This document shows, piece by piece, positions 3,240-19,435 of a stretch of 19,757 nucleotides of DNA. The notes under the pieces were generated by a model. It ran no database searches and was not told the DNA's origin. It was given only the letters and a program-made list of their open reading frames with translations. This DNA is from Funneliformis mosseae (taxonomy: Eukaryota > Glomeromycota > Glomeromycetes > Glomerales > Glomeraceae), in contig CAJVPP010001473.1 in assembly GCA_910592005.1 (NCBI GenBank), forward strand, positions 1 through 19,757. The letters are read 5' to 3'. The first letter of the stretch is position 1. Every line of letters starts with the position of its first letter. The position numbers and the translations under genes were made by a program.

Positions 3240-4242
3240 AATAACAGAGTATACATTTTTTGTTTATTTTTTATATTTTTAGTTTGAGAAAATTTTTAGT
3301 TCGAGAAGAAAAAAAATAAAATTACAAAAGTTTTAGATCATAAATAAATTTAGTTAAAATTTTTGTTGATTCGGGATCTTATCTGATTTTTGCATAGATA
3401 GCGCATTATCTGTATTGTCCTATTTGTTGTTTATTTTAGTCTTGTTTTTTAGTCATATTATCGAACGAAAAACTCTTTTTTTATCTTTCGTGTATATAAA
3501 AAAAAAAATAACAAAAAAAAAAAATTTAATTTTAATTTTTTCTAGATCATTATCTATTTTATTTTTTTTAATAAATTATTTATAAATTTTAAATAAGAGT
3601 AATAATAAGGTAAGAATAAATTAAATTTAAATAAAATAATGGTAACCGCAGTATATTTCGTTAATCATTTGGATGTAGGAGCGGAAGAATGTTTTTTTTT
3701 ATAGTAACTGCCCTTTTTTTTTTAGCTTCTTTCTTCCAAAAAAAATCGTTTTTTAATACTGATGTTTTTTCTGGATCATGATCATTTTCTTTCTCGTACT
3801 ACCGATCCATAACAAATATAGAAAAAGAATATCTCGGCCAAATATTTGATTATCCGATCATTCAATCATTTTTCAGATAAGGTTTCTCAAAACTCGAGCC
3901 ATTGTTTACATGCTTAATCTTTGATAAAACATCAACTAAATAAAGAATTTTTAAAAGAAACGATTCATGCAATTTTTACAGCCTGCATAATCTAACTTTA
4001 GATTTTGCTTTGTATTTTCCGTAATGAGCGACATGTAGTACGACCACTTTTATAAATCGTAATTTTATATTTAATTTTCGATTAATTATTTTTAAGTTCA
4101 TATAGAGAAAACAACAATGTAAACAAACTAAATTTATTTTATTTTTATGTGTTAATATATTTATATTTTAAACTTAAGGTTGATAGATCTAAATTATACG
4201 CAAAAAATTTTTTATGATTCGAACGTGTTACAATTTAATTTC
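3240..4242. other. Intergenic AT-rich stretch, no gene seen
   Basis: Roughly one kilobase of AT-rich DNA with many T runs lies between the divergent orphan pseudogene (minus) and the membrane-protein gene (plus). It would hold the promoters of both. A slightly more balanced patch at about 3640-4060 shows no open frame or familiar motif. Confidence 0.5.
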
Positions 4243-4488: not shown

Positions 4489-5493
4489 ATGGCAGAAATG
4501 GCAAAGACTATATTAGCACTTTACAAGATTATACCTCAATACGTTCTTGGTAGTCTCCCGGCCATTGCAATTATGGGAGATTCCCCCTATATTGAATTTC
4601 GTGCAAAGTTTATGTGGTTGCTTAGGTGTCTTGGATGCCCTTTTGATGGACTCTTTCATTCCCTCAACGTTGGAGGTAATGAAGTATCCCGCTGCATATA
4701 CTGGCTTTCAGAATATAACTTTACGGTCGTGGAGCACACAAATAACGAAGAAGAAACAAACGACAAAGAAGTCACAAAAGGAACAGATCGTCATCCAAAA
4801 TACAGACCTTTTGGATTTCATGCAATGAAACTAAATATAGAGAAAAATAAGCATATAAATGAATATGTGGAACGATGCACGGCAAAAGCATCCGTGCTAG
4901 AAAGATTATCTTCATTGGTTTCAGCATATTACATAATGGTCGGTTTAGTTGCAGGATTTTCCATGGTTCAAGGAGAAATAGTTTGTGAAGGTTGGGCATA
5001 TTTACCATTATTATTGTCTTGGACAATTCCAGCAATTTGGAGAAGAGGATTTTACGGGATTCTAATAGTCAAAGATCCTAGCGAAGTTTTTGACAAGATA
5101 CAAATTATTGTGGATAACGATCCTAAAGATAAACTGAAATTTCATAAACGTGCAACCGTTACGTTAACTGCTTTATTATCAATAGTTTATCCTTGGGTGA
5201 CAGTACTTATCGTCTACTTTACACCCCCGGTTGGATATTTTTGTCGCAGCAAATATGTAACAGTAATCACCTCCATCTGGTCATTTAACAGTGCTTTGGC
5301 CTATTTTTGGCATATAAAAGGAGAAAGTGATTTAATCATGTCTGGGGAAGGGTTCTTACATGTTTGGTTTTCCACGTGTGGTTTTATAGTGGCATATCTC
5401 TTGTTATTTCTAGGCATCTTTACCGGGTATAATACATTGTGGGTTGATTTATTCGGGGATGCTTGTGATTTATCGAACATAGGATGCTATTGA
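4489..5493 (+). CDS. Intact 334-aa multi-pass membrane protein, orphan
   Basis: This is the only long intact frame: 334 residues, no intron, and clearly higher GC than its flanks, as expected for a conserved coding sequence. The N-terminal part has a moderately hydrophobic stretch (about 8-30) and a Cys/Gly-rich patch (RCLGCPFDG, 46-54). An acidic-to-basic hydrophilic loop follows at about 82-120. Membrane segments are likely near residues 140-160, 168-196 (WAYLPLLLSWTIPAIW), 222-246, 256-276 and 292-315. The C-terminus is short and Cys-containing. The first ATG (4489) is preceded by in-frame stops; a second at codon 4 is an alternative. There is no signal peptide or transporter or receptor motif that I know. 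It appears to be a fungal lineage-specific membrane protein, and any function would be a guess. Confidence is high for a gene and low for its role. Confidence 0.85.
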   Translation: MAEMAKTILALYKIIPQYVLGSLPAIAIMGDSPYIEFRAKFMWLLRCLGCPFDGLFHSLNVGGNEVSRCIYWLSEYNFTVVEHTNNEEETNDKEVTKGTDRHPKYRPFGFHAMKLNIEKNKHINEYVERCTAKASVLERLSSLVSAYYIMVGLVAGFSMVQGEIVCEGWAYLPLLLSWTIPAIWRRGFYGILIVKDPSEVFDKIQIIVDNDPKDKLKFHKRATVTLTALLSIVYPWVTVLIVYFTPPVGYFCRSKYVTVITSIWSFNSALAYFWHIKGESDLIMSGEGFLHVWFSTCGFIVAYLLLFLGIFTGYNTLWVDLFGDACDLSNIGCY

Positions 5494-7147: not shown

Positions 7148-8247
7148 CTAAAATTTGATATACGTTGACTTGTTTTTCAAAATTTGAAATACTTCATAAT
7201 CTTCGTTTAAGAAGTAATTTTTTGTATCTCTTATCTCCTTCTCATAATCAGTTAAGTTACAATAATTACAACTATAACTTTTATCATCTGAAAACATAGG
7301 ACTTAAACAAAGGTCATCACTAAAGGAGGGACCACGCCAATAGATATTATAAATTTCATGATCTATATTTTCACCTTGCTTAAAATTGAAGCCTTAAAAT
7401 TATCTTTATGCTTGAAAGAGAATATAAAGCTATATTTAGTATATTCTTTTAGTAGGCTATTGGATTTCTTCCATATTTAAGGATTTAAATCCTCAAAGAA
7501 TTTCTTTCGTTCCTTTCACTTTAATGAATGTAACCGCATAAGGTTTATTATCACATAATTCATGAAATTTTTCAGGAGAAAATCCATCTTTGCTCCCTCT
7601 TAATAATAATTTAAATTTGTATGGCAAATGCAATTCTCTTACATAATCAAATTTGCCTTTAATTTCCACCTTGTCGATCCATCTTGAAATTATGGAGACT
7701 ATATTTAAATTAACAATTTTTGTATCATCAATTTCTTTATTTCTAGGGAATAAAATACTATCGCTTGGTATACTATTAGAATCCAAATAAGAATTTATTA
7801 AATTCTCATAAAGGTGAGATTTTAAAGCTTTTTATATGGTCGAACTTTTTGGGCGAACTCGTCAGAAGAGAAGCTAAAGAATTCAATTAAGGGTAAACAA
7901 TTTTGAAATCATCATCTGACCAAGTTATAGGATCTGGAATGAGTGTAGGATTTTTCGCAAGACCCCACGTTATTACACGTTTCCAAATACCAACTTCTTT
8001 CATTTGTAAATCGTCTCTTTTAATAAGTGAAATTAATGACTTTTCTGAAATCGAAGTAAAATCAAGTGATTTGAATACTCTTTTAGAAATAATATCTGTA
8101 CATATTTGTTGAAGCTCTGATAAAACATTGGATTGGAAGCTTATTCGATATTTCTCCAACTTCGATTGTAATATCATAATAATATTCGTCGTCTTCTAAT
8201 ATTTCCAAATAATTTTGACTTAATTTGGGAAAAATTCGTAAAGACAA
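7148..8247 (-). pseudogene. BTB-BACK-TLDc protein pseudogene, BTB core deleted
   Basis: Minus strand. The N-terminal cap (KLSQNYLEILEDDE, then DITIEVGE) is typical of BTB-TLDc proteins. It begins at TTG (8247-8245) where family members have ATG. The cap then jumps directly to a BACK-like region (LQQICTDIIS, SISEKSLISLIKRDDLQM, IWKRVITWGLAKNP) in another frame, so the BTB core (roughly 130 residues in relatives) is missing. Further frameshifts occur near 7890 and 7825. The TLDc domain follows: IVSIISRWIDK, YKFKLLLRGSKDGFSPEKFH, a shift near 7495, then IWKKSNS, FIFSFKHKDNF, and, after another shift near 7330, RGPSFSDDL through to TAG at 7148-7150. Intact relatives are putative BTB adaptors and TLDc oxidation-resistance-type proteins. 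This copy cannot make the full protein. The family assignment is strong. Confidence 0.85.
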
Positions 8248-12964: not shown

Positions 12965-13754
12965 AGTTCTGAATGAGTCAAGTTGAGTCGAGTTTAAAGA
13001 TCAACTCTATTTGACTCTCTTTTTTTGAGTCAAGTCAAGTCAAATTTATTTATAAAATCTTTCAATTTTATTTGATTCGAGTTATATAAATTTTAAACTC
13101 AACTTAATTTGACTTGACTTGATTTTAACTCAATTTGATTTTGAAAAAAAAATAAAAAAAAAATGAAAAGATTGTGGGAGAACTAGAAAAAGCAAACGAT
13201 TTGGATCATCATTCTTCTTGAACGATTTTTTTTATTGTTCAAGTCGAACAATTCGTTATCATTCAAGTCGAACGATTTATCATTGTTTAAGTCGAATGAT
13301 TCCTTATCGTTCTTCTTGAATGATTTTTTTATCATTCAAGTTGAATAATTCTTTATCATTCTTCTTGAACAATTTTTTTATTGTTCAAGTCAAACGATTT
13401 GGATCATCATTCTTCTTGAACAATTTTTTTTATCATTCAAGTTGAACAATTCCTTATCATTCTACTTGAACAATTTTTTTATCATTCAAGTCGAACGATT
13501 CCTTATCATTTTTCTTAAATGATTTTTTTATCATTCAAATTGAACGATTTCTTATCGTTTTTCTTAGAATGATTTTTTTATCATTCAAGTCAACTTGAAT
13601 CAAATTGAATTTAAATCAAGTCAAGTTAAATATTTAACTCAACTTAAATTTGGCTTGACTCACAAATTATCAAGTCAAAAAAATATAAACTCAACTTGAT
13701 TTGAACTCGACTCAACTTATCTGACTCGTGAGTTAACTCGACTCGTCCAAAACT
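12965..13754. mobile_element. 790-bp non-autonomous inverted-repeat element
   Basis: The left end AGTTCTGAATGAGTCAAGTT and the reverse of the right end AGTTTTGGACGAGTCGAGTT match at 16 of 20 positions, with all differences transitions. Inside the ends are arrays of GAGTCAAGT-like words, and at the centre a roughly 50-bp hairpin-bearing tandem repeat. There is no coding frame. The perfect 14-bp (or 12-bp) direct repeat at its borders shows that it jumped into the Tc1 relic. The duplication is longer than those of hAT (8 bp) or Mutator-like (about 9-11 bp) elements, so I do not assign a superfamily. Confidence 0.75.
13190..13595. repeat. About eight tandem units, period near 50 bp, each a hairpin
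   Basis: Units follow the scheme CTTGAACGATTTTTTTATC then ATTCAAGTYGAACGATT then CCTTATCATTCTT. Each unit contains TTGAAYGAT and its complement ATCRTTCAA around a T tract, so it can fold as a stem-loop on either strand. Units differ by scattered substitutions, mostly transitions, and by T-tract length. GATTTGGATCATCATTC variants appear at 13197 and 13396. Confidence 0.7.
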
Positions 13755-14439: not shown

Positions 14440-14650
14440 TAGGAAATCAATTTTATTGTCATATAGATCTTTTATGAAGATCATTTTGTCTATTTTATTG
14501 CTATAATCAATTATGAAAATCCTTAGATGTCAATTTTATTGCCTTTAATAATCATGTAAATCATAGATGTCCATTTAGTTACCTACAAATCTGGCAATTT
14601 TATTGACACAGCAACTTTATTGCTTAGCGAAATAGCAACTTTATTTTCTT
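14440..14650. repeat. Degenerate repeats of the motif CAATTTTATTG
   Basis: The word YAAYTTTATTG or a close variant occurs about seven times in 200 bp (near 14450, 14490, 14530, 14570, 14594, 14615 and 14634), often after GATGT or AGC and at intervals of about 20-40 bp. The motif has self-complementary ends (CAAT/ATTG). This may be a decayed minisatellite between two transposons. Confidence 0.45.
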
Positions 14651-16420: not shown

Positions 16421-18107
16421 TTTATATTATAATTTTTATATGTTCATATTATAGTTTCATTTAATTAAATTATTAATAAATTTAATATTTATTAAGTGTA
16501 TGCTACAAGATAATTATATATGGTGAAATAAAGTTCTGATTCAGAACATGTTGCTTAAGTTATACTTTGAATTATTTTATTATTTTATAATTCTATTTTT
16601 AAAAAAATAAAAATAAATTAAATAAAAATAAAATATAAATAAATTATAATCTAAAAAAATATAATTTAATTATTAAATTACATTTGATCTTCTTTTATTC
16701 ATTATTTTGTATTTTTTATGTTTATAAAGGTCTGAAAATAAATTATTATATATAAAAAATACTAATAAATATTTAATACTAAAACATAAAAGATTATCAT
16801 ATATAAGTAGATTTGATCTAAATACTTAAATATTTCTAGGTTTCAATTTTACTCTTATATTGAATTGTGAAAATATTATATCATATTCTTCCCAATCTTC
16901 TAATATTATAAATTAACAAAATAATACAGATTTTTTTATATTAAAGAAACTTTGTTATACTAAATTTACTAGTTAAAAACTGTATAATAATATACAAAGA
17001 AAATTTTATAAATATATATATATCTTAGACAATTATATTCTTAAAAATATAATAAGTGAAAGTAATATAAAAAAAATATAAGAGTAAGATTTGAAAAAAA
17101 AATAAGAAATTAAATTTGATTTGTATTTTAATATTTATGATATTTCTGTATTTTTTTCATAGTACAATAGTCAATTGACACTAGTTTTAACCTTTATAAG
17201 GCTAACATAATACTTAAAAAAATTATCTAATATGTAAAATACTTCACTCATTCAAATTGGTTTACTAAAATTATTTATTAGATTTGATAAATTTGAATCT
17301 ATAAGTATTCTACAAAAACTTTAATTATAACTACTTCAGTTTTACCAAATAATTAATGACATTATAATTAGTACATTAGACAGAATTTTAGGTAGTTTAA
17401 GACAATTAGAATTCTTGTTATAAATGTTCAATATATGAAATAATAATTAATAATGATTTTTAATATAGTAATGATAAATTTAAAACAATATTTTCATACT
17501 TCCAAGTTATTATTAAAGTACTAATAAGGTAATAGTGAGTGGTTTTCTGCATTTTTAGTTTTTTCAATAAAACTAGGATTTGATTTTAAATGTGAGTGAC
17601 TACATTACCTATCTATTTTATTTATATTTTAATAAAAAATAATTTTATTAATATTTAGATTTAAATAGTTAATTTAATTTCTAATAATTTTTCTAGTCTA
17701 ATATATTCTTTTTTTATTTTTTTTATCAACTAAAAATGCATCAAATGTAAGAACCAAAATTTTTATATCATTCTAAGATTTACATTTGCTTAAAGTTACA
17801 TATAATTAGCCTCATATAAATATTTAATTATTTAAATAATGTGAAGTTTGTGATAATATTATTGCTTATGTTTATGAACTGTTAAGATAAAAGCATTTTG
17901 TAATGGAAATTGAATTCTACATGATATGATGATATTTCATTAATATTGAAATATGCAGTTTCTTGTTTTATTTTAATATTAATAATTCTTTTATTTATAC
18001 AAAATGCTACTCTTACTATTTTTCTATTTTTGTCAATATCTATAATAATACTAATAGTACTATTACAAATTTGCTTACTAATATGTTATTATTTTAATTT
18101 AAGATAG
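16421..18107. other. AT-rich interior, no gene recognised
   Basis: About 1.7 kb with stops in all frames, lying between the transposase relic and the exon-like module array. No repeat unit or RNA gene stands out. Confidence 0.45.
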
Positions 18108-18676
18108 CTTTTAGTTTATTCTGATATGTTAGTTCAATATGATCAGTCTATCATAGCGTAGGTAGGTAATTTCTCTATTTATTTTTTTTTATTTTATTTG
18201 TATTTTTTTTTACTATTTAATTCTTTATACTTTTTTTTTTTAATTTGTATTTATTAGGTTAGCTTTTAGTGATCAGTTCAGTGTAATTGGTCTGTCAAAG
18301 CAAAGGTAAGTGATCAGATTTTTTACTTTATTCTCTTTTTTTTTACTTTCTATTTTTAACATTGTTTTCATTATTAATATTTTATTTTTATTTTTATTTT
18401 ATTAATTTTTTATAGCTTTTATGCAATTGGTTCAGTATGATCAGTCTATCACAGTAAGGTAAAAAATAGGATTTTTTTTATTTTCTTTTTTATACATTGT
18501 TTTAATTTTTTTATTAATATTTTTTAGCTTTCGTGTAATCAGTTCTGTGCGATCAGTCTGTCACAGCTAAGATAAGCAGTTTTTTTGTATTATATCAGAT
18601 TATTAATTTTTTTATTTTATTTTTTTTTATTTAGACGATTTTAGATTTTGGTTCAGATTTTGGTTGGATTGTTCGG
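18108..18676 (+). repeat. Array of five exon-like modules with splice-like borders
   Basis: Modules at 18108-18161 (54 nt), 18263-18305 (43), 18416-18458 (43), 18528-18571 (44) and 18635-18676 (42) are spaced 155, 153, 112 and 107 bases apart. Each follows a pyrimidine-rich tract and AG; the first four then begin CTTT. They are followed by GTAGGT, GTAAGT, GTAAAA, ATAAGC (donor G lost) and GTAAAA. Modules 1-4 share a core close to GATCAGTCTGTCACAGC and end in (A/T)AG. Spacers are T-rich and not conserved. Several module lengths are not multiples of three and stops occur in all frames, so they are not coding. Module 5 shares the borders but only loosely the core. The core resembles the GC-rich modules at 1-283 and 5888-6190. 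Confidence 0.65.
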
Positions 18677-18689
18677 GTAAAAGTAAAAC

Positions 18690-19185
18690 TACTTTATCAT
18701 CCTAATTCTCCAATAATTACTTCTTATGGCAAAAATTGAAAGAATTTATTTAGTACTAATATCCGAAATCCTTTATCTTGCATTATTAATAATATTATAA
18801 TTAAACTTTCACATGGTATCTCTTCATAAAGTTATAACCTAAATATTAATCTAAAACTAACATAATTATAAATAATATGATTACTTTATTACAAAGTAAT
18901 CAAAATTTGTGTATTCAATAATGATAATAAGTGAATAGAATTTGCATATTTAATAATAAATAAATGAAATTAATTTATTTAATTTAAAGGTGATCAATAA
19001 TTTTATGAAAAAGGATCAGTGCTCATATAAGATGTATGCAATAACTTATATTATACAATCTGATTTTAATTTTTTAAAAGCTAGACTAGAAACATAAAAT
19101 TTAATAAAAAAAATACGGATATTTTTATTTTTTGATATATAAAGAACTTATGTTCCTTTTAAATATTACAGTAAAACAGTATATA
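18690..19185. other. AT-rich interior, nothing recognised
   Basis: Between the module array and the 21-bp tandem repeat. No coding frame or repeat was supported. Confidence 0.4.
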
Positions 19186-19269
19186 GAAACAGTATAACGA
19201 AATACTGAAACAATATAACAAAATACTGAAACAATATAACGAAATACTGAAATAGTATAACTAATATAG
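19186..19269 (+). repeat. Four tandem 21-bp units
   Basis: The unit GAAACAATATAACGAAATACT starts at 19186, 19207, 19228 and 19249, exactly 21 bp apart. Units 2 and 3 differ at one base, unit 1 at one base, and unit 4 is more diverged. A simple minisatellite. Confidence 0.85.
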
Positions 19270-19435
19270 TAATAGTAAACAGTAATAATGTTTTCTTAAA
19301 AATGGCATCAAGACTTTTTTGAAAATCTTTTCTTTTTATACATTACAAGATAATGATCAGCGGCAATATGAACACAATTTTCCTTACTTACCTTTTTATA
19401 TTAGTCCAAAATGCACACTCTCCTCTAGAGGTCGG

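Follow-up and report, generated by a model that had tools for sequence, protein, structure and literature searches.

What kind of sequence sets short exon-like modules one after another in T-rich DNA is the question raised by one end of contig C1473 of Funneliformis mosseae. The window analysed here is the entire contig (19,757 nt), an AT-rich stretch of an 82 Mb genome. A sequence-only reading had taken five such modules for a tandem, micro-exon-like, non-coding array, and its interpretation as a whole is partly supported. The modules are real, but they do not form an isolated array and belong to a dispersed element (Table 1). Elsewhere in the window, a 334-aa protein is encoded whose best match is from Funneliformis caledonium (74% identity), and all organism-named matches come from genera that we take to be Glomeromycotina. 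No known RNA family or tRNA was found in the window.

Table 1. Coordinates of the element, the modules and other features in the window
Feature	Position	Strand	Remarks
334-aa protein	4489-5493	+	no Pfam match; 91 protein matches
BACK-domain protein piece	7887-8177	-	
Tandem array, ~49-nt units (TRF)	13208-13591		region 13195-13593 matches L038 7598-8339
Tandem array, 41-nt unit	14447-14576		3.2 copies
Whole element, internally deleted non-autonomous Helitron	17573-19413	- (array on +)	end-region matches to L051
Helitron 3' end and ~0.5 kb 3' region, decayed hairpin	17573-18087	-	CTAG at 17576-17573, then T
M1, exon-like	18108-18161	+	most decayed; profile matches 3' part only; GTAGGT at 18162
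M2, exon-like	18258-18305	+	GTAAGT donor at 18306; alternative start 18263
M3, exon-like, 43 nt	18416-18458	+	followed by GTAAAA, donor-like
M4, exon-like, 44 nt	18528-18571	+	ATAAGC at donor position
M5, 48-nt exon class after the modules	18635-18682	+	GTAAAA at 18683
353 bp unlike L032, L051 and L052	18687-19039	.	occupies the place of the relatives' last intron and terminal exon-like block (~200 bp)
Helitron 5' subterminal block	19040-19413	-	75-86% identical to relatives over most of its length
21-nt tandem repeat inside the 5' subterminal block	19186-19261		

The modules of the window and their relatives

The mean pairwise identity of M1-M4 is 0.728, and 300 mononucleotide shuffles reach at most 0.629. 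The four spacers of the window share an identity of 0.597, which is the shuffled level (100 shuffles: mean 0.581, maximum 0.601). The observation that cores are alike and spacers are not therefore holds inside the window, but it fails between genome copies, as described below. Re-reading of the borders bore out a GT donor-like word to the right of four of the five modules, and the proposed exon ends at 18161, 18305 and 18458 were kept. The fourth, at 18676, was given up, and the M5 donor was placed at 18683, because the 48-nt exon of the relatives ends in CGGGCGAAG followed directly by GTAAGT. The M5 module represents an exon class distinct from M1-M4 and conserved in its own right; relatives have the same exon and the same intron start, GTAAGTTGCG, and the window matches them at 86% over 66 bp. 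Under strict patterns, the window array contains one GTRAGT, no TACTAAY and no YAG preceded by eight pyrimidines, which is weak when taken alone. The case for splicing thus depends on the relatives.

A search of the same genome at the DNA level returned 144 raw matches on 38 contigs, including that of the window, and regions from 20 of the 37 other contigs were taken for locus analysis (loci designated L). A module profile was seeded with M1-M4 and then iterated. The search for further arrays that had been suggested for such a profile showed that the family recurs: at E<=1e-3, the window and the 20 loci together contain 58 module matches. At E<=1, matches fell in 13 of the 20 loci plus the window, and modules were absent from the other seven (L043-L046 and L048-L050); therefore, the 144 raw matches overstate the number of arrays. 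The less decayed copies of the array include those on C790, C3541 and C1391.

Beyond the array, the loci share two blocks, corresponding to the window from ~17562 and to 19040-19406, while the flanks outside are unrelated. Genome-wide (E<=0.001), the former block (5' in window sense) gave at least 23 matches on at least 21 contigs and the latter (3' in window sense) at least 31 matches on at least 26 contigs. The best match of 59 of the 74 modules is a module in another locus, a count to be read with the facts that far more modules lie outside any single locus and that the mean identity within loci slightly exceeds that between loci (0.666 vs. 0.640). Alignments of more than 1 kb between loci run across several modules. 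From these patterns, we judge that the array predates most copies.

The element that carries the array

The dispersed element carrying the array is a Helitron. Its copies share both end regions and have unrelated flanks, and in L051 and L052 the two end blocks lie ~7 kb apart, with a mutual identity of 85% over 5.8 kb. These two loci carry broken Rep and PIF1-helicase frames antisense to the array, so that a Rep and a PIF1-type helicase occur together in one element. Of nine reading-frame pieces from L051 and L052, one gave a Pfam match, to PIF1 (E 5.9e-11); none of the remaining eight, among which are the Rep pieces, reached the cut-off of any Pfam family, Helitron_like_N included. The domain was found in L055 at 31.3 bits, and the genome-wide domain matches list it on neither C947 nor C1011. 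With the Rep frame of L055, alignments reach 2.4e-45 in L051 and 6.9e-43 in L052; with its helicase frame they reach 4.8e-36 and 2.3e-18, respectively, in both cases with stops inside. In the whole genome there are 77 matches to Helitron_like_N, 74 of them with internal stops.

Read in Helitron sense, the element starts with TTAACG or TTAATG in eight of nine copies (11 loci queried; the window and L033 gave no row, and one unrelated L040 row was dropped). Immediately before this start, the copies have an A or a T; insertion between A and T, with no duplication of the target, is characteristic of proto-Helentrons. At the 3' end, CTAG followed by T, in agreement with the CTRR-T pattern, was read in all seven copies that gave this end (L031 and L034 gave none, and two unrelated rows were set aside). 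The canonical 5' TC of Helitrons does not occur here, and the ends are classed as proto-Helentron-like. The 24-nt pattern of the 5' end had no exact match among viral or prokaryote contigs, as expected for a fungal element. A 3' hairpin was seen in one of three copies, as a 9-bp stem 15 nt before CTAG in L038 (z -2.81); stems in L035 (z -0.25) and the window (z 0.01) did not exceed those of shuffled sequence.

The copy in the window is internally deleted: its segments at 17568-18087 and 19046-19385 match the two ends of the 7-kb element of L051 at 85-86%. As read by eye, its 5' end can be followed as far as CCAAAATG at 19406-19413, beyond which the last ~14 nt have been lost or have diverged. 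The 353 bp at 18687-19039 gave no match with L032, L051 or L052, and none at E<=1e-8 with the remaining loci. This copy is devoid of enzyme genes and also lacks at least one donor and the terminal exon-like block. It is most likely inert, and a function today is unlikely.

Splice signals and competing explanations

In L051, ~100 nt separate the first module from the enzyme side's first in-frame ATG, which is on the opposite strand. The array runs from there toward the Helitron 5' end, where the separate 48-nt exon class is followed by an intron and, last of all, a terminal exon-like block. Thus, any transcript of the array would have run antisense to the enzyme gene and away from it, and a divergent promoter may be placed between the two.

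Splice-site words were counted on both strands of 16 arrays (13.1 kb) against 50 shuffles. On the array strand, GTRAGT occurs 31 times (shuffled mean 3.9, maximum 8), AAGGTRAG 25 times (mean 0.1, maximum 1), TACTAAY 32 times (mean 2.2, maximum 7) and YAG after a pyrimidine tract 102 times (mean 46, maximum 73). The same words, in the same order, are counted 2 (mean 1.7), 0 (mean 0.3), 5 (mean 4.7, hence background) and 0 (mean 0.5) times on the opposite strand. As the array copies are duplicates of one another, these counts measure coherence and not independent events. Among the 74 modules, an acceptor is present in 58, a GTRR donor in 62 and both in 49, with some positional freedom allowed. 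The 33 measurable introns are 63-215 nt long, and 19 of them contain TTAYTAAY (shuffled mean 4.5, maximum 11). The last intron and the 48-nt exon carry the same three signals, namely donor, branch site and acceptor, and the acceptor AG of this exon is intact in five of eight copies. Gaps of the GT...AG type and of like size are seen by eye in an actin-family gene of the same genome. AATAAA is found in only two of nine terminal blocks, which leaves the 3' end of a transcript undefined, and a poly(A) signal is not claimed there. In L038, a palindrome at 4165-4215 joins an inverted and a direct half-module and contains inverted donor-like words.

The splice words are strand-specific and clearly above shuffles, so the exon reading is reasonable for the ancestor. 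Accordingly, the proposal of a multi-exon RNA with duplicated exons is the best reading of that ancestor, with the amendment that the array belongs to a Helitron. We consider it rather probable that the array consists of tandemly amplified exon-intron units of a putative antisense transcription unit carried by the Helitron. In this model, the array, a tandem repeat that lies just inside the 5' end of the Helitrons of this Glomeromycotina family, would have a repeat unit made of an exon of ~40 nt (29-48) and a T-rich intron of ~60-215 nt. The ancestral units would have formed a transcription unit antisense to the Rep/helicase gene and heading away from it, its transcript would have been spliced by the host spliceosome, and the exon-intron units would have multiplied in tandem. 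The element with its ends and enzyme genes is observed, as are the place, strand and splice-signal anatomy of the array; transcription and splicing of the array, as well as the point at which transcription began, are what we infer from this anatomy. A further step, in which a Helitron family of arbuscular mycorrhizal fungi would encode a divergent antisense multi-micro-exon ncRNA from the Rep/helicase promoter region, splicing would tolerate growth and shrinkage of the array with no damage to the transcript, and the RNA would control the element's own enzyme gene, appears doubtful to us.

The strongest competitor is a minisatellite of the ordinary kind, located in a non-autonomous Helitron or Helentron like DINE-1 or the oyster HINE, amplified by replication and bearing functionless splice look-alikes. 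Tandem repeats within non-autonomous elements of Helentron type have been published (accessible parts of PMC7492417 and PMC4067079), and the conservation of the copies agrees with this idea, since cores are not conserved above spacers. Inter-copy identity is 74.4% in cores, 82.4% in spacers and 87.6% in the rest of the aligned element, with F81 distances of 0.317, 0.189 and 0.138, or 0.277, 0.182 and 0.131 after removal of CpG changes. Cores are more diverged than spacers in 21 of 26 alignments. By transversions alone, cores fall below spacers in 21 of 26 alignments, and the transversion fraction of cores is 0.068 vs. 0.038 for the rest of the element. The lower core transversions may result from slippage or misalignment of the T-rich spacers together with C-to-T decay in the CpG-rich cores. 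By identity and composition-corrected distance, and not by transversions alone, the copies thus gave the outcome that the sequence-only reading had itself named as contrary, spacers as conserved as modules. The contrast between core and spacer is a property of the window copy alone and not of the family, and slipped T-rich spacers are probably its cause. Conservation of the exon cores under selection was considered and, as a claim, rejected. Splice AG is kept at 0.64 vs. 0.56 for other AG of the array (115 of 2000 resamples as high) and splice GT at 0.61 vs. 0.53 (36 of 2000), while both are kept less than AG and GT elsewhere in the alignments (0.69 and 0.63). The lack of a coding signal fits a minisatellite as well. 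However, a single strand is enriched in donor, branch-site and acceptor words together, and such words also occur in the last intron and at the 48-nt exon, so that we regard a mere minisatellite as unlikely, though a serious contender.

Less probable still, and in our view quite unlikely, is that the Helitron captured or carried a protein-coding gene and that the 45-48-nt exons of this gene (such as SNPDDFVRFDRSVAIK, STLDDFTWFDRSIVVK and TILGLDSDVDWIVRAK) were duplicated and then decayed. The claim that module lengths and stops exclude a protein stands for the decayed window copy but not for the relatives, some of which hold open exons of 45 or 48 nt. Such exons, open in the end-frame of the last codon and alike as peptides, occur in L032, L033, L042 and L051, and the last 48-nt exon aligns without gaps in seven of eight copies and is open in that frame in five of eight. 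The wider sample speaks against a captured gene. The 49 exons with both borders have lengths of 0, 1 and 2 modulo 3 in 11, 22 and 16 cases, and 20, 18 and 20 of them are open in the three end-frames (52, 43 and 47 stops); therefore, no coding frame is preferred, in a test that covers decayed copies and leaves room for a coding ancestor. A 61-aa query built from four open exons, which is short and makes a weak test, shared words with one candidate and had no protein match at E<=10 in a database that includes Glomeromycotina proteins. Furthermore, no host source gene or copy of the last exon outside the element was found in a genome search with a 148-bp query (exon and last intron). This query matched 19 contigs, 15 of them over the exon, and all 19 also match an element block, either the adjoining 3' block or the 5' block. 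The sole candidate left open for a module source outside the element is L039 on contig C2327, which has two well-kept modules at 3514-3745 and is absent from both lists of block matches. A protein product, which no test favoured, is not claimed. Finally, the modules might be iterons, a series of sites bound by Rep of the element itself or by another DNA-binding protein, with incidental splice motifs. This would suit the subterminal location and the palindrome of L038 with its inverted half beside a direct half, but it is very improbable: a binding site has no need of donor, branch-site and acceptor words that share a strand, and by distance the cores have diverged more than any other part of the element.

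Comparison with described elements

Proto-Helentrons have a 5' TT and a 3' CTAG end (PMC4067079, accessible part), and both occur in the element described here. Proto-Helentron-Pi of Phytophthora infestans shares with it the 5' TT and 3' CTAG, the T after CTAG and a Rep/helicase gene, a likeness in ends and gene content; in contrast, the accessible text on Proto-Helentron-Pi describes no antisense exon-intron array (PMC4067079). In non-autonomous elements of the Helentron type, tandem units of 100-500 bp have been sought (PMC7492417, accessible part). As far as the accessible parts of the sources describe them, HINE/DINE-1-like elements are non-autonomous rolling-circle elements with an internal tandem array of variable copy number, as here (PMC4067079; PMC7492417), whereas in the present array the units carry splice- and branch-site words on a single strand, and the enzyme-bearing L051 and L052 have the array as well. 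Helitron gene capture likewise places gene-like pieces in a Helitron (PMC4778049, accessible part), but here the pieces have no source gene found in the host, and every contig matching them matches the element too. In Rhizophagus irregularis, Helitrons are mentioned without such an array in the accessible parts of two papers (PMC8647823; PMC11075540), and CpG methylation of transposons has been reported (PMC8647823, accessible part). A Helitron tandem repeat of microexon type was not described in the literature searched, which consisted mostly of titles and the starts of abstracts.

The description that fits best is a transposon subterminal tandem repeat with exon-intron anatomy, rather than a host non-coding gene with demonstrated selection. 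Helitrons are a known type of mobile element; what is unusual here, and real, is a subterminal repeat built of exon-plus-intron units. Tandem repeats within elements of Helitron type are usually called satellite-like, whereas here the unit is composed of exon and intron parts, and some such arrays may be amplified pieces of genes. In the genomes of mycorrhizal fungi, arrays of this type could be mispredicted as short multi-exon genes.
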